Shown piece after piece: positions 1,721-19,424 of a DNA stretch of 28,931 nucleotides. The translations under genes and the position numbers were made by a program. The notes beneath the pieces are model-generated. The model was not told the DNA's origin, did not search any database, and saw only the letters and a list, made by a program, of their open reading frames with translations. Within the stretch, counting starts at the first letter, position 1. Every line of letters starts with the position of its first letter. The stretch is from IMG/VR virus record IMGVR_UViG_3300031223_000033, positions 1 to 28,931 of that record. One strand, 5' to 3'. Origin of the DNA: a virus.

Positions 1721-3956
1721 GTCGGTTTCTGTAATTTTGCGCTCGCGAAATAATTAAAATTAAGTCCTGACCGCTTATTTTATTAACTACTTCTAGTTGG
1801 CTCATGTCACCGCCCATGCTATCTCCAAGCATGGATTTAAGTTTATTAAGAGGTGTTATGACTTCCGGATTTCCACGGTTTGCACCAGCATATTCACCTA
1901 CCAAAGCATTTACAGGTCCGCTGACTATACCACCATCTGCAAAAGCTACTTGGCCACCACCACCACTTTCTGCAATGTTTGCAGCTGCAGATTTTGCTAT
2001 CGTTCCTAAAGCAATTAATGCAATACCGGCAACAATAGCACTAATACCTGATAGATCAATTAGTGATTTTTTAATCGCTTCAATTGTAGTACCAATACCA
2101 AGAGCAAGTTTTCCTAGCCTTATAGCTATGTTTCCAAAAGTATTTAGTACTAAGCCTAAAAGAGCTTCCATTCCTACATTACCAGTAGCAATGTTACCAA
2201 TAATTTTACCAAAGCCTTCAGCAAAACCTAGTGAAGCTTGTTCTAGTATTTCCCTAGATCGGTTTTTAAAAAAGGCTAAGTTTTCATTTATCTTAGTCGT
2301 TTCTTCATCTATTATATCACCATCTGCTCTAAGTTGATCGCCTATCCCAGTAGACATTAATCCACCAGACTGTAATGTGCCTACAGATTGTATTTGAGGT
2401 CGTCCACCTTGGCCTGTCGGAGTTGGGTTACTAATTAATGTATCGTTAAGATTAATTATTTTTAAAAGTTCCTCAGCTTGCGCCTCTAGTTCTTTAGTTC
2501 CGTTGGCAGTTTCTAGAGCTAGTAATTTTTCTGCCAGAGCGAGTTGTGCTTTTTGTGCTGCAGCTGCTTGTGCATTATCAGCTACACCATTAAAAGATGC
2601 TGCTTGTGCATCTGTCACTGCTTTTCTTCTTGCTGATAATTCCAGTTCCTTTTCTATAATTTTTGCCTGGATCTCCTGCAGCTTTTCTTGTGCTGCTTTT
2701 GCCTTTGCAGTTTTTAGTAAGGCTTCATTATATTTATTTACAGCAGTAGTCGCTTCATCTGTATTTATAGTCTCGAGCTTTAGATTCCCCAAATATTTTG
2801 GAGAGATTCTATTGAGCTCTTGTATAGCTTTTATCCTTTGTTGCTTACTTACATTTTCATCACGAGCTGTAAATAAAAGCTCTTCGACTTTTGCCTTTTC
2901 TTTAGCGATGGCATCTGTAGCTCTATTAGTAACCTCTGTAAGTTGATCTTGACTTTCAACTACTTTTTCAGTTTCTTTATTAAATAAATAAAATGCGGAT
3001 ACAGCAACGCCAATTCCTGCAGCAATTAGTCCAAAAGGTGTGGCCAACATTGCCACTTTTAAAATTCCAAAGGCAGTAATTAATCCGGGAATAACTGTAG
3101 TCATTAGGAATCCTAAGCCTGTAAGTAATGGTCCTAGTGCAGCAACTAGACCTATAACGACCAAGGCGTTGTTTTTTATAGTAGGATCTAGATCGTTAAA
3201 AGCTGTGACCAATCTAGATACAAATTCCATGATTCTAGTAACGATAGGTTGCAAAGTTTTAGCTAGATCTGCTATAGCTAACTGGAAGGCTAACTGCGAT
3301 TTTCTGGCTTCAGTTACATCTTTGTTATTTTCCCTGTATTTTTTATTAACTTCTTCTAAGCCAGTACTGGCTAATTTGTTTAAAATAAAGTTTTGTTCTT
3401 CACCTAGTTTGGTAGCCTCTGCTAGACCAGCATTAAAATCATCTAGGTTTATTCCAGACCTTTCTAAAAGTTCTGAAAATGGACCAATAGCTTTACCAGT
3501 GGCTAAAGTTTCTTGCAGTCCATCTGCAATACCTTCAAACTTTAAAGTATCAGAAAACTTAACGGCAGCACCAGAAATATTATCTAAAGCCCTGGTAAGA
3601 TTTTCGCCTTTAAATCCAGCAGCTAGTAAGTTGGATAAACCTTCAACAGAAGAATCTGTTTCACCAGTGATGGCTTGTACTTCTTTGAGCTGATCGCGAA
3701 TAAAATTAAGACCTTCGCCAGCCAATAAAGCGTTGGTTTCCAATCTACCAAGATCGGATCTTAGCTCTTCAGTACCTTTAGTCACTAATGCAAGTCCAGC
3801 AACTACAGGAGCAGTAAAATTCATGCTCATGCTACTGCCTATACTAGATAGGCGTTTGCCGACTTTCTTCATCCTTCTATCGACATTCTGCATCTGGGAA
3901 GAAAACTGCTTAAGGTCCGCTTTAAATCTTATCGATATGTTGGCTAAACTACTCAT
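1713..3956 (-). CDS. Tail tape measure protein
   Basis: This 747-residue protein sets tail length and sits inside the tail tube before DNA ejection. Residues 1-60 (ISIRFKADLKQFSSQMQNVDRRMKKVGKRLS) are the usual amphipathic tape-measure start. A long helical region follows, with hydrophobic stretches around residues 262-322 and 625-660. The C-terminus carries the common tape-measure ending ADGGIVSGPVNALVGE followed by EVITPL. Heptad-rich Ala/Glu/Lys segments lie around residues 330-500. It is placed after the tail chaperone and before a large tail protein, as expected. A late-type promoter ends about 20 nt upstream of the ATG, so its leader is very short. The length is moderate for the family and implies a fairly short tail. 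Confidence 0.95.
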   Translation of the reverse strand: MSSLANISIRFKADLKQFSSQMQNVDRRMKKVGKRLSSIGSSMSMNFTAPVVAGLALVTKGTEELRSDLGRLETNALLAGEGLNFIRDQLKEVQAITGETDSSVEGLSNLLAAGFKGENLTRALDNISGAAVKFSDTLKFEGIADGLQETLATGKAIGPFSELLERSGINLDDFNAGLAEATKLGEEQNFILNKLASTGLEEVNKKYRENNKDVTEARKSQLAFQLAIADLAKTLQPIVTRIMEFVSRLVTAFNDLDPTIKNNALVVIGLVAALGPLLTGLGFLMTTVIPGLITAFGILKVAMLATPFGLIAAGIGVAVSAFYLFNKETEKVVESQDQLTEVTNRATDAIAKEKAKVEELLFTARDENVSKQQRIKAIQELNRISPKYLGNLKLETINTDEATTAVNKYNEALLKTAKAKAAQEKLQEIQAKIIEKELELSARRKAVTDAQAASFNGVADNAQAAAAQKAQLALAEKLLALETANGTKELEAQAEELLKIINLNDTLISNPTPTGQGGRPQIQSVGTLQSGGLMSTGIGDQLRADGDIIDEETTKINENLAFFKNRSREILEQASLGFAEGFGKIIGNIATGNVGMEALLGLVLNTFGNIAIRLGKLALGIGTTIEAIKKSLIDLSGISAIVAGIALIALGTIAKSAAANIAESGGGGQVAFADGGIVSGPVNALVGEYAGANRGNPEVITPLNKLKSMLGDSMGGDMSQLEVVNKISGQDLILIISRAQNYRNRRG

Positions 3957-4083: not shown

Positions 4084-4563
4084 TTAAGCTTGTTCTGCCC
4101 TGGACCTCAAGTCTTCGATTCTTTCTGCATCAGTTTCAAAATCATCTAGCAAATCTTTACAAAAAACATTGATGTCATTTTCTTGTTTAGAACTTATCAT
4201 TGTTTTAATAGATTCAATTGAGTAGTTTTTTTTGCTATAGTTTTCAGTGCATTCATGCATAAACAAATAAACCCTTTCTTGCATAAGGTTCAAGTCGAGA
4301 ACTTCGGCACATATTTGATCTAGCAATTGTTCCTTATCCATTTCGGAATATTCTTTTACCAATTCTGGATAGTTTTCTTTAAGCTTGTCGACGTTTTTCA
4401 TTTCAAATTTAGATTTTGCAAAATCAATTGTTGAATCACTTTCAATGGGTATTTCAGATACATTTTCAAAACTGAAACTATCAGTTTCTACAAATACACT
4501 TGCTGGCATTGATGCACTCAATAAAAGAGTAAGCATTGTTAACAATAAATAAATAGATTTCAT
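4084..4563 (-). CDS. Secreted protein of unknown function, moron-like cassette
   Basis: A 159-residue protein that I do not recognise. Residues 1-21 form a clear signal peptide: a Lys, a hydrophobic core (IYLLLTMLTLLLSA) and likely cleavage near SMPAS. The mature part is acidic and mostly helical, with three cysteines (ICAEV, HECTE, VFCKD) that could matter after export. It sits between the tail chaperone and the tape measure, where phages normally have no exported protein. It has its own late-type promoter (4596-4643) and its own terminator (4034-4065), the layout of a moron. Possible roles are host surface change or superinfection exclusion, but these are guesses from position and export only. 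Confidence 0.75.
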   Translation of the reverse strand: MKSIYLLLTMLTLLLSASMPASVFVETDSFSFENVSEIPIESDSTIDFAKSKFEMKNVDKLKENYPELVKEYSEMDKEQLLDQICAEVLDLNLMQERVYLFMHECTENYSKKNYSIESIKTMISSKQENDINVFCKDLLDDFETDAERIEDLRSRAEQA

Positions 4564-11002: not shown

Positions 11003-11019
11003 ATTTCTTTTATCTGCTT

Positions 11020-11067
11020 CAAAAATATGGGAGCTATCTAATTAAAAACTCCAACAATGTTTCCTTT
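11020..11067 (-). promoter_or_regulatory. Putative phage late promoter, copy 3 (portal and head/tail operon)
   Basis: The minus-strand block AAAGGAAACATTGTTGGAGT (11067-11048) differs by one base from copies 1 and 2. Its TTG is exactly 24 nt before TATTTTTG (11027-11020), and the following GAAGC is also shared with copy 1. The leader to the portal ATG at 11002 is short. This is the likely main late promoter for about 6.3 kb of head and tail genes. Confidence 0.7.
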
Positions 11068-11079
11068 GTTGGAGTTTTT
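11044..11079 (-). terminator. Terminator hairpin that contains the late-promoter element
   Basis: ACTCCAACA pairs with TGTTGGAGT (9 bp, extended by flanking A and T runs) around the 10-nt loop ATGTTTCCTT, and a T-run follows on both strands. It can end transcripts from the gene at 11145-11492. The stem's promoter-side arm plus loop are the conserved late-promoter 20-mer, so one sequence seems to serve both jobs. Confidence 0.75.
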
Positions 11080-11096
11080 AAAATTTTGCTAACAGT

Positions 11097-11127
11097 GTAT
11101 AAAAAACATTAAAACGTTTTTTTATAC
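11097..11127. repeat. AT-rich inverted repeat between the accessory and late operons
   Basis: GTATAAAAAA (11097-11106) and TTTTTTATAC (11118-11127) form a perfect 10-bp inverted repeat with an 11-nt loop. It lies between the stop at 11145 and the terminator hairpin at 11044-11079. It may be a weak extra terminator. Confidence 0.4.
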
Positions 11128-11144
11128 GGGTGTTAGCACCAATA

Positions 11145-11492
11145 CTAACCAACTACCTTTTCAATAGTCTTATAGCATTCTTTAACTTCATCAATGTTAT
11201 TTTCAAGATATTCATCAAAAGAATCAACACCGCCAAAAACTTCGTCTAACCTTTCAGATATTTGTCCTGTAATATTAGTCCAACTATCTTCTTTGCATTC
11301 TTCTGGAGTATATATCACCATCATATGTGCATTACTTTGGTAGTGTAAAACCATTGTTGCATATGCTGTTAATTTATTTTTGGCTACTAACTTAAATTTA
11401 GTACTCATTGCACCATATTCATACACCGTACTGGTGCTAACACTTGGTATAGTGCATTGCTTGGTTTCTGTATTTTCACTATCTGTATTCAT
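11145..11492 (-). CDS. Hypothetical protein at the end of the accessory operon
   Basis: A 115-residue protein that I do not recognise. It starts MNTDSENTETKQCTIPS. The middle (FKLVAKNKLTAYATMVLHYQ and AHMMVIYTPEE) looks like strands and helices of a small globular fold. The acidic C-terminal helix reads ISERLDEVFGGVDSFDEYLE. No signal peptide or membrane segment is seen. It is 99 nt after the HTH gene and is the last gene before the terminator and late promoter copy 3, so it is probably read from the promoter at 15880 or from upstream. Confidence 0.6.
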   Translation of the reverse strand: MNTDSENTETKQCTIPSVSTSTVYEYGAMSTKFKLVAKNKLTAYATMVLHYQSNAHMMVIYTPEECKEDSWTNITGQISERLDEVFGGVDSFDEYLENNIDEVKECYKTIEKVVG

Positions 11493-11591
11493 AATTTAAA
11501 GTTTTAGTTTATTAATTAATTTTAGTGCTGTGAGGTCGCAACGACACCATACCATAAACGTTAACAACCCTATTTCTAAAAGCTTCAACCT

Positions 11592-11798
11592 CTAAACTTC
11601 CAAATGAAGCTTGAGGTCCAAAGCATTTGCCAATAGAATAGAATGGTGAAGAGAAAATAAACCTTTGCCGCTCATATTCCTATAAAAGGTAGATTGTTTC
11701 ATCCCTATTATCTTAGGAAGTTCTATAAGGGAAATCCTTTTTTTCGCAGCTGTGTTTTTGATCTCTTCCAGAAATTGATGGTTTGTTTTTAGTTGCAT
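11592..11798 (-). CDS. Small HTH protein
   Basis: A 68-residue single-domain protein. Helices and the pattern ISLIELPKIIGMKQSTFYRNMSGKG match a Cro/CI-type helix-turn-helix (helix 2 LIELPKIIG, recognition helix KQSTFYRNM). It starts only 2 nt after the ParB-like gene stop, so it belongs to that operon. It has no dimerisation or sensor domain beyond the HTH. It is a candidate regulator of the dyad promoter at 15880-15913 or of a late switch; both are inference. It differs in sequence from the HTH protein at 26832-27098. Confidence 0.7.
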   Translation of the reverse strand: MQLKTNHQFLEEIKNTAAKKRISLIELPKIIGMKQSTFYRNMSGKGLFSLHHSILLANALDLKLHLEV

Positions 11799-11800
11799 AA

Positions 11801-12310
11801 TTATTTTAATTTACTTTCAAATTCATTCCAACTTTTACTAAACTCATGATTGGCGAAAGCTTCTTTCAGCCCTGTTATTTGTTTAAGTCTTAAAACTTCT
11901 TCAGCATCCATGCCTAGATGTTTTGCAACTTCTAGATCTGCCCAGCCTGCTTTAGTAAGAGATAAAACAATATCACTCATTCCTTTAATAGCATGTGTTC
12001 CTCTAGCTCTGTTATGACGAATAGTTGAAGCCATTCGCTCATCTATGTTTTTATTTATAACCACTACTGGTACTTCCTTGATTTTGAAATATTCTTTAGC
12101 ACATCTATATCTATGAAATCCATCAACAATAACATATTTTGAGCCATCAAAATATGTAACTATTGGCTGAGTATAACCATCTTCTTCTATACTTAATCTT
12201 AAAAGCTTCATTTCTGGAGGAGCTACACTATTTGGATTATAATCGTTTGCTTGAAGTAAATTAATATCAACAAGCTTAACATCTAATACTGGGAATTTAA
12301 TTTTTTTCAT
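11801..12310 (-). CDS. ParB-like (IbrB-like) protein
   Basis: A 169-residue protein with a ParB/sulfiredoxin-fold N-terminal domain: VKLVDINLLQANDYNPNSV (residues 11-29), VDGFHRYRCA (62-71, the D-G-x-H-R signature) and IRHNRARGTH (97-106). A helical part with an HTH look follows (GWADLEVAKHLGMDAEEVLRL). It overlaps the PAPS-reductase-like gene by 14 nt. This pairing is that of IbrA/IbrB, known from an E. coli prophage as regulators of immunoglobulin-binding proteins and found in many mobile elements. Whether ParB here binds nucleotide or DNA, or modifies DNA, is not shown by the sequence. Confidence 0.82.
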   Translation of the reverse strand: MKKIKFPVLDVKLVDINLLQANDYNPNSVAPPEMKLLRLSIEEDGYTQPIVTYFDGSKYVIVDGFHRYRCAKEYFKIKEVPVVVINKNIDERMASTIRHNRARGTHAIKGMSDIVLSLTKAGWADLEVAKHLGMDAEEVLRLKQITGLKEAFANHEFSKSWNEFESKLK

Positions 12311-13592
12311 TTTCTAACTCTTTTTTAAGATTTCTCATTTCTTTGGTGCTTTCCTGTATGCCTAGTAATTTACCCCATTTTTCTTTTAGTAAAACCATAT
12401 CTTCTCTATCCGCTTTTGTAATTCCATAAGAAAGTGAACGACAAGCAAAATCATTTTTTTCTATTGCTTTAGCAATACGCTTCCAATGTATCCATTTGCC
12501 ACTTGTGTGATCACCAAATTTTTTAATGATTTCTTTTGGAGACATTTCATCCTTTATTTTAGAAATATTTACACCTTCTTCTTTTTCAAAAAAAGCAAAA
12601 AAAATTTTTATTTTTCTTACGTAATGATCTCGAAGCTCTGGAGAGTACATTCCTAAAGATTCCAGCAAAAAAACTGCATATTGTTCCCAATTCAAATGAT
12701 TTGGCTTTGAAGTGCCGTTATGGCCTAGTAAATCGGTCTTGCAATAAATATTTCCAAAATTTGCACCACTTACTCTATTCACCACCTTATGCCAAGTTTC
12801 AGGTTCTAGAGAAGCCCATTGATTAAGTGAAACCCTTTGATCTGCTCCATAGGGCTGGCAAATACGCTGTTCGTGTATTCCCATGCCGTTTTTATACATC
12901 ATTTCATAGGATTTATTAAATTTCAAATTAAATTTACTTACAGCATGCCATACATCTTCTGTCCTCCAATCGTAGATAGGATAAATGTTAAATACGTTTT
13001 CTTTTATTTTCGTAGTCCAGTTTAACCCTTTATACAAATTCTTTCCAAAAGCGATAGCCCTAAACCTATTCATAGACTCATCTGTTCTTATTCCTACAAA
13101 ACAACCTACCTTTTTGGAATTGTGCTTTTTCATTAACCAAAGAGGAAATTTATACATGAAATCTTCAACTTCTTCTCCAGGAACAAATAAGTTGCCAAAA
13201 GGATGATTAAATTCATTTATACAATCATTAGGCATTTCACGCACCCACTTATCTTTATCTTTTTGTAACCAAGGTTGCCAGTTGGGCTGGAATACACTAC
13301 TAGCGTTATGAGAATTGAAAGGCAAGCATAAATGATAAAAATCACGTATTTGTGAAAGCTCTTTAAGCTCATAAACATGATCTATCGTTGCTTTATACTG
13401 CGCTTCATAATCTACATAAAACACATCAAAAGTTCTTTTTCTTTTTTCAGCTTCACTATTAGCAAGCTGAAGCATTACAGAAGAATCTTTACCCCCAGAA
13501 AAAGAAAAATAAACCAATTCAAATTCATCAAAAATGAAATTTATTCTTTCCATGAAAGCTTCATAAACATTAGTGTCTAAATACTTTTTCAT
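12297..13592 (-). CDS. PAPS-reductase-like PP-loop protein (IbrA-like)
   Basis: A 431-residue protein. The PP-loop SFSGGKDSSVM (residues 30-40) is the ATP-pyrophosphatase site of the PAPS reductase/sulfurylase superfamily. Conserved-looking blocks follow: DVFYVDYEAQY, FVGIRTDESMNRF, NIYPIYDWRTEDVW and MGIHEQRICQPYG. The long C-terminal half resembles the DUF3440 extension of IbrA proteins. The catalytic Cys motif of true PAPS reductases (ECGIH) is not seen, so sulfate reduction is unlikely. Related PP-loop enzymes thiolate tRNA or DNA (DndC). It overlaps the helicase gene by 4 nt (ATGA) and the ParB-like gene by 14 nt, so all three are probably made together. Confidence 0.85.
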   Translation of the reverse strand: MKKYLDTNVYEAFMERINFIFDEFELVYFSFSGGKDSSVMLQLANSEAEKRKRTFDVFYVDYEAQYKATIDHVYELKELSQIRDFYHLCLPFNSHNASSVFQPNWQPWLQKDKDKWVREMPNDCINEFNHPFGNLFVPGEEVEDFMYKFPLWLMKKHNSKKVGCFVGIRTDESMNRFRAIAFGKNLYKGLNWTTKIKENVFNIYPIYDWRTEDVWHAVSKFNLKFNKSYEMMYKNGMGIHEQRICQPYGADQRVSLNQWASLEPETWHKVVNRVSGANFGNIYCKTDLLGHNGTSKPNHLNWEQYAVFLLESLGMYSPELRDHYVRKIKIFFAFFEKEEGVNISKIKDEMSPKEIIKKFGDHTSGKWIHWKRIAKAIEKNDFACRSLSYGITKADREDMVLLKEKWGKLLGIQESTKEMRNLKKELENEKN

Positions 13593-14803
13593 TCTGCTAT
13601 TTTTTTAAATTGCTCTAGAGTCAATTTTTTAAACTCGTTCAAGAAATTTGCCTTTTTATCTACATTTTTATACATCATATTTTCAAGACCTACATTGCCT
13701 ATCAATCTACGTATAGTACAACTTTTGGTTTGCCCGGTACGGTAAATTCTTTTTATGATCTGGTCGAACAAACCAAAATCCCAATGCTGATCAAACAAAA
13801 GCATTTCATTAAAATCGTACTGGAGATTTAACCCATGACCATGTTTTTGCCAACTTAATATTCTTGCTTTAGGAAACCTTCGTTTTAATTCTTGTTGTGT
13901 ATTCACAAACTTAGCGACAATTAAAGTTTGAGGATTATCTTTTAATACCTCAAAAACAACTTGAAGTTTCTCATCGCTTAAAGAATAATTATGTTGAAGC
14001 TTTTGAGTCAACATTAAAAAAAAGTTAGGTTTAGCCATAAGCCAATCTTCTGAAAGGACTTCCTCCATAATTCTTTTATGTTCTGTTTTTTCATCTTCCT
14101 GAAGCTCGTATTCAATATCTATAAAGTCTATCCCTACGTCTATTCTTAAATCAGCTCTAAAGATGTAAGGCTCAATTAATTTATGTAGATAATCCATATT
14201 ATGATAAGCAATAATCCATTCTTTTGTAATGCCTTTATAAGTGCCTGGCTTCTTAATAGTCATTTGCTTATACTCGCAAAAGTTATTTTTAAATTCTGGC
14301 AAACTCATGTTTAAAATAGTAGGAGAAAGGAAATCCATTTGAGCTTTAAGATCAAGTAAGTTTCTACTCAGCGGTGTTCCGTTCAAAATATATTTGTATT
14401 GCACCATTTTACCCAATGTATGTATGCGTTGGGTTCGTTTTGCATTTTCATTCTTAATCTTTAGGCTTTCATCTACAATAATAACAGGCTTCCAAGAAGT
14501 TGATATTTTTTTAAAAATCTGTAAATAAATCCTATCCGACATGGAAATACTTTCAATACCGATCAAATCGAAATCACAATTAAAACCACCCCACTTTTCA
14601 ATTTCGTGTTTTGTGCTTTCTTGGTAATTATCTGTGTTTATACATTGGTAAGGGGCTAGATACAAAACATAAGTAGGCTTTAATTCATTTACCAACTCAA
14701 TTACTGGTCTTGTCTTTCCAGTGCCGGCCTCCATAAAGAAAGCACCTACTTTTTTAGTAGAAAGCTTTTCTTTACTTTTTATTTGGTCTATTAAGGGTTT
14801 CAT
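13589..14803 (-). CDS. SNF2-like superfamily 2 helicase / translocase
   Basis: A 404-residue ATPase with the SF2 motifs in order: Walker A MEAGTGKT (residues 24-31), VLYLAPYQ (Ia), Walker B IIVDESLKIKN (108-118, DES in place of DEAH), LNGTPL (motif III, 140-145), LIVAKF in the second RecA domain, and QIIKRIYRTGQT (motif VI). The D-E-x-x-x-I-K-N and R-x-x-R-x-G-Q features are typical of SNF2 rather than replicative helicases. It is shorter than chromatin remodellers, as is usual in phages. It probably moves along double-stranded DNA. It is coupled to the PAPS-like gene and overlaps the upstream small gene by 32 nt, which suggests a joint function. Confidence 0.88.
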   Translation of the reverse strand: MKPLIDQIKSKEKLSTKKVGAFFMEAGTGKTRPVIELVNELKPTYVLYLAPYQCINTDNYQESTKHEIEKWGGFNCDFDLIGIESISMSDRIYLQIFKKISTSWKPVIIVDESLKIKNENAKRTQRIHTLGKMVQYKYILNGTPLSRNLLDLKAQMDFLSPTILNMSLPEFKNNFCEYKQMTIKKPGTYKGITKEWIIAYHNMDYLHKLIEPYIFRADLRIDVGIDFIDIEYELQEDEKTEHKRIMEEVLSEDWLMAKPNFFLMLTQKLQHNYSLSDEKLQVVFEVLKDNPQTLIVAKFVNTQQELKRRFPKARILSWQKHGHGLNLQYDFNEMLLFDQHWDFGLFDQIIKRIYRTGQTKSCTIRRLIGNVGLENMMYKNVDKKANFLNEFKKLTLEQFKKIAE

Positions 14804-15101
14804 CGTAAGTGATTTCTAAAGGATTTAGCTTTTTAGGCTTATGGTGTTTAAATTCTATTTGGCCAATATTTTTCCCATCTTTAGAAAAAATAGACCATTT
14901 CTTTGAGCTATGTTGAAGATCTACTTTGCTCAAAATCCATTCTGTTATCCAAAAAGCTCCACTTTTACTTACATCCATGTCTTGGCCGTAAAATTGACTA
15001 GCAGGTATTAAAGCTTCTGATCCATCGAAGGCTCTAGCTTTATAGCATTTACTAGAAATGCTATAAAAACTATCTAACCTTACAGATATGCACTTAGGCA
15101 T
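14772..15101 (-). CDS. Hypothetical protein coupled to the helicase
   Basis: A 109-residue basic protein that I do not recognise. It begins MPKCISVRLDSFYSISSKCY, contains AFDGSEALIPASQFYGQD (possibly a small beta-barrel) and WITEWILSKVDLQ, and ends with a Lys-rich tail. The layout (strands, then Lys-rich end) could suit nucleic-acid binding, but that is only an impression. It overlaps the upstream gene by 1 nt (TAATG-type) and the helicase by 32 nt, the strongest coupling in this operon. Confidence 0.6.
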   Translation of the reverse strand: MPKCISVRLDSFYSISSKCYKARAFDGSEALIPASQFYGQDMDVSKSGAFWITEWILSKVDLQHSSKKWSIFSKDGKNIGQIEFKHHKPKKLNPLEITYDETLNRPNKK

Positions 15102-15856
15102 TATCTTACTAGCTTACCTTTTGAAAAACGCATAGTATAAGTACCGTCTCCAAATCCATTTCCTAAATGCGCTACTTTTTTATCATTAACACATAACCAT
15201 TTACCACCAATATCTGTATAAGTTTTGTAATGACTTTCTACATCTATATCATCAAATAGCAACTTATAATCGTAAACGTTATGATAACCATCTGCATAAG
15301 CTTCATTAATTTTACCAATTAATACTAAATCTTGTTCCTTAGATGAAGTAAAGGTTTCTTGAATTGTATCGCATTCCATTAATGTAACTATATCTCCTTT
15401 TTTTAAATCAAATTTAAGTTTAGAAATAGGCTTATCATACTTTAATTTAGATGGTTTTTTAAAGAAATAAAGAGCTGGAAAACTTTTATAATTAACAGTA
15501 ATGTTTTTGTAATTTTTAGTTTCTACAGCATTAGTTTTTATAAACTCTTCTGGAACCTTTGTATTTAAAGAAAAAATAGTTCCCTTAGCGTTAATAAAAG
15601 AACCAGCATCTCCATATCCACCAGAGGCATAGCAAGTAATATGGGAGTCTATTGTTAAAGGCAATGTCCTGTTACTATTTAACAAAGAAAATAAAGCTTG
15701 TAAGTTTGCCTTTTCTGTTGTTAAATCTTGTAATGCTTTAAAGTTTGCATTTTCCCAAACATAATTTACATCATTAATATCACGATGTGAATTCGCTTCA
15801 AAAAATAAATCTTTATAAGATTTCTTGATTCTTGTAATTTTTTTAACAGTTTGCAT
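15101..15856 (-). CDS. Hypothetical protein, first gene of the helicase-PAPS-ParB operon
   Basis: A 251-residue protein of unknown family. The first 60 residues are helical and charged (RIKKSYKDLFFEANSHRD). The middle has ASGGYGDAGSFINAKGTIFSL, and the end reads GNGFGDGTYTMRFSKGKLVR. Two G-x-G-D-x-G/T-like blocks (GGYGDAGSF and GFGDGTYTM) give it an internal echo, and the C-terminal GDGTY block recalls DUF4241-like proteins; I give this little weight. It is led by the promoter-dyad region at 15880-15913, about 24 nt before the ATG, so it is the first cistron of the accessory operon. Confidence 0.6.
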   Translation of the reverse strand: MQTVKKITRIKKSYKDLFFEANSHRDINDVNYVWENANFKALQDLTTEKANLQALFSLLNSNRTLPLTIDSHITCYASGGYGDAGSFINAKGTIFSLNTKVPEEFIKTNAVETKNYKNITVNYKSFPALYFFKKPSKLKYDKPISKLKFDLKKGDIVTLMECDTIQETFTSSKEQDLVLIGKINEAYADGYHNVYDYKLLFDDIDVESHYKTYTDIGGKWLCVNDKKVAHLGNGFGDGTYTMRFSKGKLVR

Positions 15857-15879
15857 AAGTTCTTGTTTTTAAGGTTACT

Positions 15880-15887
15880 CAAATATA
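15880..15887 (-). promoter_or_regulatory. Promoter -7 box (TATATTTG) of the accessory operon
   Basis: TATATTTG on the minus strand is a perfect Bacteroidetes -7 element, 24 nt before the ATG at 15856. No TTG is present at the -33 position; a perfect inverted repeat occupies that stretch instead (15888-15913). Confidence 0.65.
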
Positions 15888-15913
15888 AGTCTAATATTCT
15901 AATATATTAGACT
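15888..15913. promoter_or_regulatory. Operator-like inverted repeat abutting the -7 box
   Basis: AGTCTAATAT and ATATTAGACT form perfect 10-bp arms around TCTAAT. The dyad touches the -7 box and covers the -33 region. This is the place for a repressor, or for an activator replacing the -33 contact. The small HTH protein at 11592-11798, in the same operon, is a natural candidate (inference). Confidence 0.6.
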
Positions 15914-15938
15914 ATTTAAGAATATTTAACATTAAAAA

Positions 15939-16160
15939 CTAATAAACCTCTGGATCACTGGTCTGGTAAATGCTCCGACCGTTGCTAATCTTCACCCAGT
16001 TTTTTCTGTAAAGCAAGTATTTAAACCCATCAGAATAGTTGGTGGAATACATAGGCAGCTGCTTAAGAGGTAGCTTTTCGCTAGACTTATCCTTCTTGAT
16101 CACCGTTTGCCCCTTGGCATTTTTGGTGACTTTTGTTTTTGGCTTGCTCCAAAGTTTCAA
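15939..16160 (-). CDS. Hypothetical basic protein with TTG start
   Basis: A frame of 73 codons beginning at TTG (16160); the same frame is open further up to about 16205 but holds no ATG. The product is basic at the start (KLWSKPKTKVTKNAKGQTV) and ends with the more protein-like FKYLLYRKNWVKISNGRSIY. The first 74 nt overlap another frame (16087-16197) that has a proper ATG. Either both are real overlapping genes, or a +1 indel has split one ancestral gene. Function unknown. Confidence 0.4.
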   Translation of the reverse strand: MKLWSKPKTKVTKNAKGQTVIKKDKSSEKLPLKQLPMYSTNYSDGFKYLLYRKNWVKISNGRSIYQTSDPEVY

Positions 16161-16197
16161 AAAGTACTTTGTTGAGTTGATCGATAGAATTTTCCAT
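16087..16197 (-). CDS. Small ORF, possibly a truncated phage protein
   Basis: A 36-residue frame starting with ATG at 16197, 9 nt after the HNH gene stop: MENSIDQLNKVLFETLEQAK followed by a short odd tail and TAA. The first 20 residues look like a genuine helical protein start, of a kind that in Bacteroidetes phages usually continues for 50 or more residues. The tail from residue 21 is Gln/Asn/Gly-rich and may be out-of-frame sequence. It overlaps the frame at 15939-16160. Confidence 0.4.
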   Translation of the reverse strand: MENSIDQLNKVLFETLEQAKNKSHQKCQGANGDQEG

Positions 16198-16205
16198 AGT
16201 CGTTT

Positions 16206-16826
16206 TTAGTTTTTGATTTGTTTTTCTAGTTTATTTTTTAGTTTAATGCCTCGTTTAATTTGATTTGGATATTGCAAATAATTTCTATCAAGATGTTCAC
16301 GCCTGGTAATGGCCATTAAATTCTCAATTCTGCAATCTAAACTATCCCTATTTATAAAAATGATAATCATCCCTTCAGGTATTTTGCCATGGTGTTCTTC
16401 CCAAAGTAAACGATGAGAAGCCTGCATATATCCATCTTTGTTTTTTTTGTACCTATAAGGAATTTTCTTTTCCCATCTTATAGATTCATAATCTGGCCCC
16501 TGTGTGTTATGTGCCTTTCTGCCTTTTTTGAATTGTGTTTTCTCTACCGCCGCCATCCCCTCTGGAGTCATAAACTCTTCTCGCTTTTTTCCTTTATTAA
16601 AAGCAATATTGCCTTTTTTAAATTGTGTATGCTTGCACTGAGCTGCATAAATACCACCAACTCTTTTCCAAAATGCTTTGCTTTTTCTAAGTCCTAAAGG
16701 CCCACTCTTTCCGGTTATGCTAGATTTAGTTCTGTTTAGTATTATAGCCAGATCCTCGTTTTCCTTATCTGGATAGTTCTCTATCAAGTAATCAATTTCT
16801 TCTTTGGTCCAAAATTTCTTTTTCAT
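16206..16826 (-). CDS. HNH endonuclease with NUMOD-like repeats
   Basis: A 206-residue nuclease. Residues 1-45 hold a SANT/HTH-like domain (FWTKEEIDYLIENYPDKENE, then IILNRTKSSITGK). Two NUMOD3-like motifs follow, TQFKKGNIAFNKGKK (67-81) and TQFKKGRKAHNTQG (97-110). The HNH domain spans about 117-185: ASHRLLWEEHHGKIPEG (His 138), NRDSLDCRIENL (Asn 169) and RREHLDRN (His 178). This is the form of free-standing phage homing nucleases. It overlaps the YopX-like gene by 4 nt. I see no disrupted neighbour that would mark it as recently inserted, apart from the odd overlapping frames just downstream. Confidence 0.85.
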   Translation of the reverse strand: MKKKFWTKEEIDYLIENYPDKENEDLAIILNRTKSSITGKSGPLGLRKSKAFWKRVGGIYAAQCKHTQFKKGNIAFNKGKKREEFMTPEGMAAVEKTQFKKGRKAHNTQGPDYESIRWEKKIPYRYKKNKDGYMQASHRLLWEEHHGKIPEGMIIIFINRDSLDCRIENLMAITRREHLDRNYLQYPNQIKRGIKLKNKLEKQIKN

Positions 16827-17200
16827 TTGAGAAGGGTTTTTTTATTTTCATTTTCATAAACATTGCCTTTGACCTCCAAATGCTCACCAAAATATTCAAC
16901 GAGTGATGTTAAAAAACTTCCATCTTTTTTAAATGAAACATCGATGCACCAGCTTAAAGTATCTTCGCACCAAACAACAGGCAAAAGACTTTCATTGTAT
17001 CCTAAACTTAAATCCTCTTCATCAATAGGATAGTAATCGACAAGGTAATCGGCTTCAAATATTTCAATTCCTTTTTTATCTTCACGTCCAATTGATTGCA
17101 ATGGGATGATATCTTTTACCGAAAAATCATTGGTTAGTGGTTTTCTATAACACATTTTTTTTAATGTTAAATCCCAGAATCTAAATTTTATTTTTCTCAT
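16823..17200 (-). CDS. YopX-family protein
   Basis: A 125-residue protein with the YopX hallmarks: the start MRKIKFRFWDLTLKKMCY, then LQSIGREDKKGIEIFEADYL (the L-Q-x-x-G-x-x-D-x-x-G-x-E-I-x-E-x-D motif), a strand VVWCEDTLSWCI and a C-terminal VKGNVYEN. YopX proteins are common in phages and have no firm function. It overlaps both neighbours by 4 nt (ATGA), so it is in a coupled run of accessory genes. Confidence 0.88.
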   Translation of the reverse strand: MRKIKFRFWDLTLKKMCYRKPLTNDFSVKDIIPLQSIGREDKKGIEIFEADYLVDYYPIDEEDLSLGYNESLLPVVWCEDTLSWCIDVSFKKDGSFLTSLVEYFGEHLEVKGNVYENENKKTLLK

Positions 17201-17409
17201 TTCTTTAGTTTTTTATTGAAGTATCGTCTAATTAAGTAGCCTCTTAAAATGCTTATCAATGTAAAGCATAGTGTTATTCCAAGGTTTTTTAAAGCTGTAC
17301 TATGTATTCCAAACAAAGGGAGCACTAAAAAAGTAGCTGCTAGTGATATTGTAAAACCTAAAAAAGTATTGATGAGACTTTCTTTAAATGATTCTTTTTT
17401 TGATTGCAT
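17197..17409 (-). CDS. Small two-helix membrane protein (DUF7220-like)
   Basis: A 70-residue protein with two predicted membrane segments, about residues 15-34 (TFLGFTISLAATFLVLPLFG) and 40-58 (NLGITLCFTLISILRGY), and positive ends (RRYFNKKLKK). The pattern ES-N-x-x-x-GF-IS and FT-IS-R-Y-RR-FN matches small phage proteins of the DUF7220 type. Holin activity cannot be excluded from size and topology, but it lies among DNA genes, far from the M15 lysin, so I do not call it a holin. Confidence 0.7.
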   Translation of the reverse strand: MQSKKESFKESLINTFLGFTISLAATFLVLPLFGIHSTALKNLGITLCFTLISILRGYLIRRYFNKKLKK

Positions 17410-17423
17410 AGTTTTTTTAAATT

Positions 17424-17732
17424 TTATTTTCTTTTTCTTTTTTTAAATTCATCTTGATAGCGTTCCTGATATTCTATTTTTCTACGCTCATACTTTTCTA
17501 AAGCTTTTAGATCACCACTTTTAGCTAAATCAAATAATTTACTGTCTATTAGTAAATCAGCTTTATCAAGTCCTTTATTGTAGTATAAATTAATTGTGTG
17601 ATTTTCATCATAAAAATCTTTTTTAAAAACTTCAAAATCATCAACTTCTAATACATTTACCACCTTAGATAAAGGATATCCAAGAGTTCCAACTTGTATC
17701 ATCTTTTTTAAAAATTCTTCTGTGTATTTCAT
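17424..17732 (-). CDS. Hypothetical helical protein
   Basis: A 102-residue, highly charged and helical protein. It begins MKYTEEFLKKMIQVGTLGYP with LSKVVNVLEVDDFEVFKKDF, contains a YYNKGLDKADLLIDSKLFDL stretch and an AKSGDLKALEKYERRK block, and ends with basic residues. The N-terminal part could be a small DNA-binding HTH. The A-x-x-G-x-x-x-A-L-x-x-Y-E motif recalls terminase small-subunit-like phage proteins, but a P27-like small terminase is already present at 21172-21606. It starts just after the methyltransferase stop. Confidence 0.6.
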   Translation of the reverse strand: MKYTEEFLKKMIQVGTLGYPLSKVVNVLEVDDFEVFKKDFYDENHTINLYYNKGLDKADLLIDSKLFDLAKSGDLKALEKYERRKIEYQERYQDEFKKRKRK

Positions 17733-17733
17733 T

Positions 17734-19008
17734 TTAGATTTTTTTAATATAATCTTTACCGTTTATCTTTACATTTAGTGTATTATCCAGCTTTAACATT
17801 CTGTCAATTGTTACTTGGCAGTACTTAGGGTCAAGTTCCATGGCGTAACATTTTCGGTCTAATTGGTGTGATGCTACCATTGTAGTTCCAGAACCAAGAA
17901 ACCCATCACTTACTATTTCACCAACTTTTGAACTGTTTCCTATCTGTAACCCAAATAGTAAAATTGGTTTCATTGTTGGGTGCTCTCCATTTCTATTTGG
18001 TTTATCAAATTCTAGAATTGTAGTTTGCTTACGTCCACCTTTCCAAAAATGGCTACCGCCTTCTCTCCATCCGTACAAACATGGCTCATGTTCTTTTATC
18101 CATTCCCAACTCTCTGCATTCACAGCTTCTAGGCATGGCTCATGTCTCCATTGGTAGTCTTGTCTGCCTAATACCATTGAACTTTTTAACCAGATTAAAC
18201 ATTGTTTTAAAAGAATTCCAGAATCCTTCATGGCTTGTCTAAAATTAGCACCCTCAGAATCGGCATGCCAAACATACCAAGCTCCGCCTTTTTTTGTAAA
18301 ACTTCCTAATGCAGTATAAAAATCATAAAGAAATTTGTATAAATCATCATTAGTAATTGAGTCGTTTTTAATAGTTAGAGCATCTTTAGTTGCTCCTGTA
18401 TAATTTACATTATATGGTGGGTCTGTTAAAACCATGTCCGCTAAACTTCCGTTCATTAATTTAGCGATATCATTAACATCGGTTGAACTGCCACACAATA
18501 AACGATGCTCTCCAATTTCAATTAAATCACCTAAAACAACATCAACATCTAATTCTTCAGGAATAATGTAATCATCCTCGTAAGCTTTATCAGCAAGCAA
18601 TTTATCTTTTTTAATAATCCATTCATCTAACCCTAAAATATCAAAGCCTAATTCTGGTAAGTCAATTTCTGAAAATTCTAAATCCAATACCTCAAAATCA
18701 AATTCACCTGCATGAGTATTACTGATAATAGAATATTCTTTAACTTCTATTTCCGTAAGTTTTCTGTTTGGAAATCTGACATCAATTTCTTCATCCCCTC
18801 GACCTGCCAGCAATAAAGCTGTGATTCTTTGATTTCCACCAATTATTTTATAGTCTGTATTTATTGCAGGTATTTCAACCAGATTAAATTTATTTAAGCT
18901 TTCTAGCAACTTTTTCTGTTTAACTGCAGTAATTTTTCTCGGATTAAAATCTTACTTAACTAAGTCTTTAACTTTTACTTTTTTAGTTACCCATTGTAAT
19001 TTTTCCAT
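17734..19008 (-). pseudogene. ParB-domain / beta-class DNA methyltransferase with in-frame stop near the N-terminus
   Basis: From the ATG at 19008 the frame reads MEKLQWVTKKVKVKDLVK, then TAA (18954-18952), then DFNPRKITAVKQKKLLESLN and a complete ParB-methyltransferase. The residues after the stop are the expected ParB start (D-F-N-P-R-K-I), so the stop cuts the domain. A TTG at 18909 could give a 391-residue product lacking the first ParB strand. Beyond it lie IIGGNQRITALL (ParB), LTDPPYNVNY (motif IV, residues 161-170 from the TTG) and, near the C-terminus, FLGSGTTMVAS (motif I). The IV-then-I order is beta class, an N6-adenine or N4-cytosine enzyme. The methyltransferase domain looks intact and may still be made. 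It could protect phage DNA from restriction. Confidence 0.75.
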
Positions 19009-19017
19009 GTTCTATAT

Positions 19018-19203
19018 TTAATTTTTGAGTTTTTCTTTTAAAATAAAAATGCACACTGCAATTTCAAAAGCCATCAGAATTATTATAAGTAAAATTCTTA
19101 TCCAGTGGTCGTTGATCCATTTCAAATCGAGTAGGGTAGAAGTCGCCAGTGGGAAAGCAAAAGTGAGCACTACTATAAATATAAATTTGAGGTCTTTTTT
19201 CAT
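19018..19203 (-). CDS. Small membrane protein
   Basis: A 61-residue protein with two hydrophobic segments (about residues 6-24, LKFIFIVVLTFAFPLATST, and 35-55, IRILLIIILMAFEIAVCIFI) and a Lys-rich end. Function unknown. It overlaps the gene upstream by 4 nt and ends 9 nt before the ATG of the methyltransferase frame. Holin-like size and topology are noted but not supported by context. Confidence 0.6.
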   Translation of the reverse strand: MKKDLKFIFIVVLTFAFPLATSTLLDLKWINDHWIRILLIIILMAFEIAVCIFILKEKLKN

Positions 19204-19424
19204 TTCTTGTTGTTTTTTCTATTATTCACATTGCTAAAACTTCTGTAACATGAGTATTTGTACTCCCCAAAAAATTCAAAGTATTGATCGTTTGCCCGGT
19301 TAAAGGCTTCAAGATTTGTTTTAGAGGTTTTTAGCATTTCAAAAAAGTAGTTGTAAAATCCTACGTTAGTGGCCAGCTTTTTAATTAATTGATTTTCAGT
19401 TTCTAATTCAGAATGTGATTTCAT
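19200..19424 (-). CDS. Hypothetical small protein after the large terminase
   Basis: A 74-residue charged protein that I do not recognise, starting MKSHSELETENQLIKKLATN with YNYFFEMLKTSKTNLEAFN and ending NNRKNNKK. It is probably helical. It overlaps the large terminase stop by 17 nt and the membrane protein gene by 4 nt, so it belongs to the same transcript. Confidence 0.6.
   Translation of the reverse strand: MKSHSELETENQLIKKLATNVGFYNYFFEMLKTSKTNLEAFNRANDQYFEFFGEYKYSCYRSFSNVNNRKNNKK

Follow-up and report, generated by a model that had tools for sequence, protein, structure and literature searches.

The cassette examined here lies in IMG/VR virus record IMGVR_UViG_3300031223_000033, an uncultivated virus record of 28,931 bases whose full length is called the window below. 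The genes for a small protein (unk2), an SNF2-family translocase, IbrA and IbrB make up a real cassette core that recurs across phyla. Judged from its sequence, IbrA is a PP-loop ATP-pyrophosphatase domain joined to DUF3440; the PP-loop is conserved, and the catalytic Cys of PAPS reductases is missing. The IbrA-IbrB pair swaps carriers, occurring either with the SNF2 protein or within type IV-B CRISPR (csf) operons. Our preferred reading, to which we give a probability of about 50%, is that IbrA-IbrB may be a portable effector that modifies nucleic acid by adenylation and without sulfur, mounted on interchangeable carriers, in the window an SNF2 motor.

The window SNF2 protein has both RecA domains with Walker A/B and motif VI, retains the motifs GTGKT, DES..IKN, NGTP and R..R.GQ, and the residues that mark the superfamily (G27, G29 and K30; D111 and E112; R352 and R355) are invariant in an alignment of 20 rows. 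An IMG/VR search with an alignment of cassette SNF2 proteins, in which loci were picked by SNF2 similarity alone, yielded 80 loci. The cassette SNF2 profile scored 65 of these at 350 bits or more, and they form 60 clusters at 95% identity; this class is partly self-defined, since the training set of the profile consisted of cassette SNF2s that had been located via IbrA. IbrA was present within 2.5 kb in 58 of the 60 clusters and IbrA together with IbrB in 56, and a relative of unk2 was located just upstream of SNF2 in 27. Among more distant SNF2 proteins (<350 bits), IbrA was found in 1 of 14 clusters. SNF2 presence was counted from all six-frame open reading frames (ORFs), as SNF2 ORFs can be overlapped by 5'-extended IbrA. 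The check set by the original prediction, co-occurrence of the helicase and the unknown genes with IbrA/IbrB elsewhere, is therefore borne out for SNF2 and unk2, but not for unk1. Gene order is also preserved: of 77 non-redundant cassettes, 74 have SNF2 upstream of IbrA and 71 have IbrA ahead of IbrB; the six in which IbrB comes first include those of Flavobacterium phages FCL-2 and 6H. The cassette is found in Lactobacillus, Streptococcus, Flavobacterium and Fusobacterium phages. Among 12 annotated phage records chosen for reading, six have, no more than 1.5 kb from IbrA, an SNF2 protein that scores >250 bits, and six do not. Flavobacterium records number 90 each for IbrA, SNF2 and unk2 (counted per gene, not paired by record).

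The IbrA-IbrB pair is also found inside type IV-B CRISPR operons, which encode Csf1-3, Cas11 and CasCysH. One csf2-based scan of viruses yielded 72 loci (including L343, on the same contig as L004), with csf3 in 66, CasCysH in 54, IbrA in 8 and both IbrA and IbrB in 7. Further csf loci with the pair occur on two haloarchaeal plasmids, in one Methanophagales metagenome-assembled genome (MAG) and on one more virus contig. Locus L004 reads csf2, a csf1-like gene (no family match), a CysH-like gene, IbrA, IbrB and csf3, where csf2 (TIGR03115, 1.5e-5) and csf3 (TIGR03116, 2.7e-23) match below the curated cut-offs; its IbrA is 68% identical to that of the window and is the nearest row to it in the IbrA tree. 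The haloarchaeal plasmids L261/L265, also with matches below cut-off (TIGR03114 6.1e-9/4.4e-8, TIGR03115 4.7e-12/6.8e-11, TIGR03116 9e-19/1.2e-16), carry csf1, a 138-aa gene, csf2, csf3, IbrA, IbrB and a CysH-like gene in that order, with 1-3 more small genes interspersed. The MAG (L054) and virus contig L127 both carry csf2, csf3, CasCysH, IbrA and IbrB. Among 392 genomes of one phylum, a csf2-type match was found in 6, in short loci, and IbrA in 1 of those 6, the same genome as L054. For the IbrA tree (123 rows; built with FastTree alone, with one long-branch warning), 7 duplicate loci were set aside, as were rows at least 75% identical to a retained row. Seven rows of the tree bear the csf label, which requires 6 changes, or at least 5 when starred branches are counted; L306 (csf2 and IbrA, no IbrB seen) is not labelled csf on it. 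The window itself gave no csf2 or csf3 profile match and the CasCysH profile matched IbrA alone, in a search that did not extend to csf1 and cas11. The window differs from these operons in that its carrier is SNF2 with unk2 and its IbrA, a DUF3440 protein, is longer; where csf operons do contain IbrA, most also retain a separate CasCysH.

IbrA scores 94.1 bits against PF11922 and 49.3 bits against PF01507, both above the curated cut-offs. Positions S32, G34, K35, D36, S37, R169, E172, S173, R176, P205, D208 and W215, among others, are conserved at 1.00 in 167 non-redundant rows. No Cys column reaches 90% in the same alignment, the best being C245 (Cys in 130/167, Ala in 31), so IbrA does not show the conserved catalytic cysteine of PAPS/APS reductase (CysH); its absence, suspected in the original prediction, is confirmed. 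An AlphaFold2 model of IbrA (mean predicted local distance difference test score, pLDDT, 87.1; 76-row alignment) matched PAPS reductase in Foldseek (8.9e-6). By VIA-align it matched human FAD synthase (Z 14.6, 3.6 Å, 176 aligned residues) and the ATP sulfurylase subunit CysD (Z 13.8, 3.4 Å, 169 aligned), with APS/PAPS reductases at nearby values (Z ~14-12.5); the match covers approximately residues 3-268, and the DUF3440 half is scarcely probed by it. FAD synthase and CysD are known to transfer AMP without a catalytic Cys. Given these fold matches and the lack of a conserved Cys, ATP-dependent adenylation would fit IbrA better than sulfur transfer.

IbrB contains a ParB/sulfiredoxin (Srx)-type domain (PF02195, 36.2 bits, above cut-off), is matched by Noc/ParB models, and is encoded with a 14-nt overlap with IbrA. 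Weak matches to the ParB/Srx relatives SbnI and SerK were also observed; both act on small substrates. The third partner, unk2, belongs to a family of 30 with a C-terminal tail HxPxK...LxR, and its AlphaFold2 model is all-beta (mean pLDDT 92); comparison of the fold with the PDB gave nothing clear (best Foldseek E 0.32, best Z 4.0).

If the adenylation reading holds, unk2 and the SNF2 translocase would bind, remodel or scan DNA, and IbrB would clamp or license a site, perhaps with NTP. IbrA would then, at the expense of ATP, attach AMP to a group on the nucleic acid (or to a nucleotide). The adenylated group might stay so, or AMP might be displaced by another nucleophile, sometimes with the aid of a GNAT or cupin encoded nearby in other loci. 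Most likely, the product would serve as a mark on phage (or host) DNA that shields it from host nucleases or controls expression. A role in DNA modification or counter-restriction is possible for the cassette, as originally predicted, and its sulfur version is unlikely. More tentatively, and at less than even odds, IbrA-IbrB may be the catalytic module of an unrecognised non-sulfur modification, either adenylation or ATP-driven acylation with the recurrent GNAT, borne on an SNF2 motor or on a type IV-B Csf ribonucleoprotein.

Several observations weigh against this reading. In clusters anchored on IbrA (the best 80 of 246 and the best 80 of 410 relatives, so that the fractions concern close relatives), IbrB is present in 73/77 genome and 74/76 viral clusters, but this SNF2 in only 15/77 and 17/76, some having too-short upstream sequence. 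Since SNF2 is nearly always with IbrA and most IbrA-IbrB pairs are without SNF2, it is the SNF2 subfamily that appears to depend on IbrAB and not the reverse. IbrA and IbrB diverge together (distances correlate at r = 0.68), whereas SNF2 distances correlate weakly with those of IbrA (r = 0.175) and IbrB (0.19), which argues that SNF2 and IbrAB are not strictly co-inherited. The SNF2 label on the IbrA tree likewise requires 16 changes for 52 rows, at least 12 of them forced by starred branches. Together with the csf label changes, these figures show IbrA-IbrB as the constant pair, with carriers that change. Chromosomal-type IbrA-IbrB pairs are found in ordinary contexts. Cys is common at several IbrA positions, C245 above all, so Cys-using chemistry is possible in some members. 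Weak, partial matches of IbrA to DndC and BrxP models (PADLOC, 1.5e-8 and 1.2e-8) and to TIGR03183 (NCBIfam, 2.1e-5; 23.6 bits versus a cut-off of 290.4) were also obtained. Lastly, IbrAB is an activator of prophage eib genes, an activity that may well do without modification.

That activity is the basis of a different account, in which IbrA-IbrB is a transcriptional co-activator pair, and SNF2 and unk2 remodel nucleoprotein to turn phage genes on with no covalent modification. IbrAB is so named in annotations and in excerpts of a study of glacial viruses ("co-activators of prophage gene expression"; PMC4490671), IbrB has a ParB_N domain, and a dyad and a helix-turn-helix (HTH) gene frame the operon. 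A co-activator role leaves the invariant PP-loop and the csf association without a function, and a modification that changes expression would look identical to it; we regard this account as doubtful but plausible. It is improbable, in our view, that IbrA makes or consumes a soluble nucleotide, as a signal or by pool depletion, within a superinfection-exclusion or abortive system. The close fold matches FAD synthase and CysD do adenylate small molecules, and SbnI and SerK use small substrates, but the near-exclusive tie of SNF2 to IbrA and the insertion of the pair in an operon for nucleic-acid-binding Csf proteins favour nucleic acid as the target.

Sulfur chemistry was weighed in two forms. 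DndC-like incorporation of sulfur into DNA, as phosphorothioate or a thiobase, is suggested by the PAPS-reductase fold of IbrA and the partial DndC/BrxP matches. Dnd, Ssp and BREX type 4 systems also have a PAPS-reductase-fold enzyme, and excerpts of two papers place ParB-type and SF2-type proteins in them (PMC10853773, PMC12839542). IbrA, in contrast to the enzymes of those systems, has no conserved Cys, including the Cys dyad of DndC, and its best Cys columns hold Ala or other residues in many rows; a PADLOC scan of ten proteins of the region gave no match to any further Dnd or Ssp component, dndBDE neighbours included. The analogy to DndC drawn in the original prediction is weakened accordingly, and we consider this form distinctly improbable. 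The other form, a PAPS reductase carried as an auxiliary metabolic gene (AMG) for sulfur assimilation beside an unrelated helicase, agrees with the domain name and with many annotations. It is already contradicted by the Cys alignment and by the linkage with SNF2 and IbrB, and is extremely improbable. The earlier judgement that the operon does not serve sulfur metabolism is strengthened by the lack of a conserved Cys, the near-exclusive DNA-translocase partner and the occasional DNA-methyltransferase-like partner.

The six minus-strand genes of the operon (11592-15856) overlap by 1, 32, 4 and 14 nt and include one 2-nt gap, in exact agreement between the ORF list and the layout first described. 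Pfam and PHROGs matches likewise agree with the predicted SNF2-like, IbrA-like, IbrB-like and, weakly, HTH identities. The proposal of a six-gene system stands for the unk2/SNF2/IbrA/IbrB core; it does not extend to unk1, and the terminal HTH gene is variable among cassette relatives. For unk1, no Pfam or PHROGs family and no phage relative was found, and the only matches were 100% self-copies on two IMG/VR contigs, so that no relative is seen outside its own virus. HTH-like small ORFs occur in the flanks of 27/77 cassette loci, anywhere in the flank and without a demand for adjacency; the 68-aa protein of the window is a candidate local regulator.

Features of the window discussed in the text
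Feature	Coordinates	Strand	Matches and remarks
unk1, 251 aa, first gene	15101..15856	-	no family; virus-specific, outside the conserved core
unk2, 109 aa	14772..15101	-	phrog_5809 2.5e-31; conserved small all-beta SNF2 partner
SNF2-family translocase, 404 aa	13589..14803	-	PF00176 2.7e-12; phrog_62
IbrA, 431 aa	12297..13592	-	PF11922 DUF3440 1.1e-26; PF01507 7.6e-13; phrog_2302 3.3e-85
IbrB, 169 aa	11801..12310	-	PF02195 6.4e-9; phrog_2159 1.9e-65; VDGFHR motif
HTH protein, 68 aa, last gene	11592..11798	-	weak phrog_8 (3e-4)/phrog_4583
Inverted repeat AGTCTAATAT-6-ATATTAGACT	15888..15913	.	candidate operator upstream of operon; unique in window
ParB-domain DNA methyltransferase	17734-18909		phrog_498
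HNH gene	16206-16826		in terminase-portal interval

The operon had been placed under one dyad promoter. The dyad stands: it is a perfect 26-bp inverted repeat within the 82-nt gap ahead of unk1, with a chance expectation of 0 (100 shuffles, ≤3 mismatches), and may be the operator of the operon. TATATTTG follows directly after the dyad (15880-15887), but the TANNTTTG motif is not enriched across the window (32 observed versus 42.9 expected), which leaves a promoter role for the dyad and TATATTTG unproven; a scan of the window for sigma-70-like sites also gave no excess over chance (23 versus 29.0 expected). Other perfect 10-bp inverted repeats in the window gave 21 overlapping matches against a mean of 1.0 (30 shuffles). 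Near-identical perfect inverted repeats (AAAAACCTCTGA...) at ~4035 and ~4653, on both sides of the gene at 4084-4563, are possibly duplicated terminators.

Compared with Cellulophaga phage phi39:1 (28,760 bp), the window terminase shows 51.6% identity and the portal 47.3%, by which we consider the window a relative of this Flavobacteriia phage. The phi39:1 terminase stops at 3293, and four small genes separate it from the portal, which begins at 4407. The corresponding interval of the window (11003-19407, ~8.4 kb) contains the cassette, the ParB-domain DNA methyltransferase and the HNH gene, and the cassette of Flavobacterium phage FCL-2 likewise lies between terminase and portal. The cassette is thus cargo and not core. 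The ParB-domain methyltransferase, with the HNH protein in the same interval, is a second candidate modification gene of the window.

Two small families recur next to IbrA. A GNAT-like gene touches IbrA in 56/250 loci (redundant), directly downstream in 51 of them; at a threshold of 0.01, PF13508 matched 18/56 and PF00583 15/56 of this set, and its profile matched PDB acetyltransferases (best 2.6e-6). Counted by non-redundant rows, 15/52 SNF2-linked, 1/7 csf-linked and 12/64 other cases have a GNAT no more than 1.2 kb away; in the window, none was found within 1.2 kb of IbrA. The second family touches IbrA in 36/250 loci (redundant), upstream in 35, and by eye looks like the extension that long IbrB proteins (L121, L116) carry at the C-terminus. 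An ectoine-synthase-like cupin occurs in the IbrA neighbourhood of two loci, L014 and L184.

Variation around SNF2 was also observed. The two cassette-type clusters without IbrA are L207, where the contig ends at SNF2, and L235, where a methyltransferase-like gene follows. In L235 (4962-7044), this DNA-methyltransferase-like gene occupies the place of IbrA, and the available sequence has no IbrA-IbrB; in L186, a methyltransferase-like gene lies between SNF2 and IbrA (PF01555 E = 0.0019, below cut-off). Proteins encoded between SNF2 and IbrA are ~250 aa in L186, L205 and L231 and 290-296 aa in L222 and L238; those of 247-250 aa and 296 aa in L186, L205 and L238 match no PHROGs or PADLOC family, and none passes a Pfam cut-off. 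Upstream of SNF2, at the usual place of unk2, L048, L103 and L104 encode 377-416 aa proteins with a Cys-rich N-terminus, that of L048 matching phrog_16123. A HARP/SMARCAL1-type domain was considered for these proteins upstream of Firmicutes SNF2 and rejected, as L048 and L104 gave no Pfam HARP match. In a Fusobacterium phage (L018:10745-12030, and L211), a cassette with SNF2 downstream adjoins ParB, an annotated queuine TGT and a queuosine precursor transporter. Klebsiella locus L263, filed as plasmid, has IbrA-IbrB beside ahpCF and dsbG in a chromosomal-looking stretch.

IbrA and IbrB of the window belong to the same two families as the IbrA/IbrB of prophage islands and of Flavobacterium phages 6H and FCL-2, which also carry SNF2 and unk2; YbdN/YbdM of E. 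coli we take to be further relatives. The FCL-2 paper describes two unnamed ORFs upstream of IbrAB that also occur in a host genome (PMC4541368), a table on glacial viruses lists IbrA/B for one phage-plasmid scaffold that also has a CRISPR/Cas system (PMC4490671), ybdNM appear in an E. coli LysR study (PMC9068703), and ORF4 of a Psychrobacter phage, with a PAPS-reductase domain, is presented as an auxiliary sulfur-metabolism gene (PMC10434257). Dpd 7-deazaguanine modification likewise places a helicase and a ParB-type protein around a base-modifying enzyme (described in part in PMC12839542). DpdE models match the window SNF2 (5.8e-13, PADLOC), but the cassette has no DpdA/TGT and IbrB no DpdB match at 0.1. 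CasCysH of type IV-B is likewise a PP-loop protein described as without catalytic Cys, and AMPylation of nucleic acid has been suggested for it (PMC8175902). Non-sulfur adenylation by a CysH-like protein is the idea of that paper; the present work applies it to IbrA and adds the genomic link. Neither the SNF2/unk2 link nor the csf link occurs in the excerpted accounts of IbrA/IbrB, and the SNF2-IbrAB cassette is unnamed in the excerpts of PMC4541368, PMC4490671, PMC8813620 (Asgard elements), PMC12839542, PMC10853773, PMC10434257, PMC9068703, PMC10848311 (Bathyarchaeia viruses), PMC5874904 (phage network) and PMC8175902. The literature search returned no paper linking IbrA or ParB to type IV-B, though an earlier report may exist elsewhere. 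We conclude that the cassette is real, widespread and, as far as this search shows, undescribed, with a well-supported partnership and a putative chemistry.

IbrA matches were found in 215 of 50,697 phage records and 593 of 72,556 plasmid records. IbrA-type genes are widespread and often go without a name or are assigned to sulfur metabolism, and sulfur-AMG labels such as that of ORF4 in PMC10434257 merit a check for the catalytic Cys; the present results replace an imprecise label by an enzyme system that can be tested. The cassette, common to unrelated phages, couples a helicase that translocates DNA with a pair of enzymes that use ATP. The ties of IbrA-IbrB to SNF2, GNATs and type IV-B offer another way to approach the unexplained CysH-like component of type IV-B CRISPR. 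As the pair also occurs in that puzzling CRISPR type, learning what it does to nucleic acid would resolve a standing question for two fields at once. If IbrA-IbrB is the catalytic module of a non-sulfur modification, type IV-B CRISPR would gain a chemical output and cassette phages would carry a new DNA mark.

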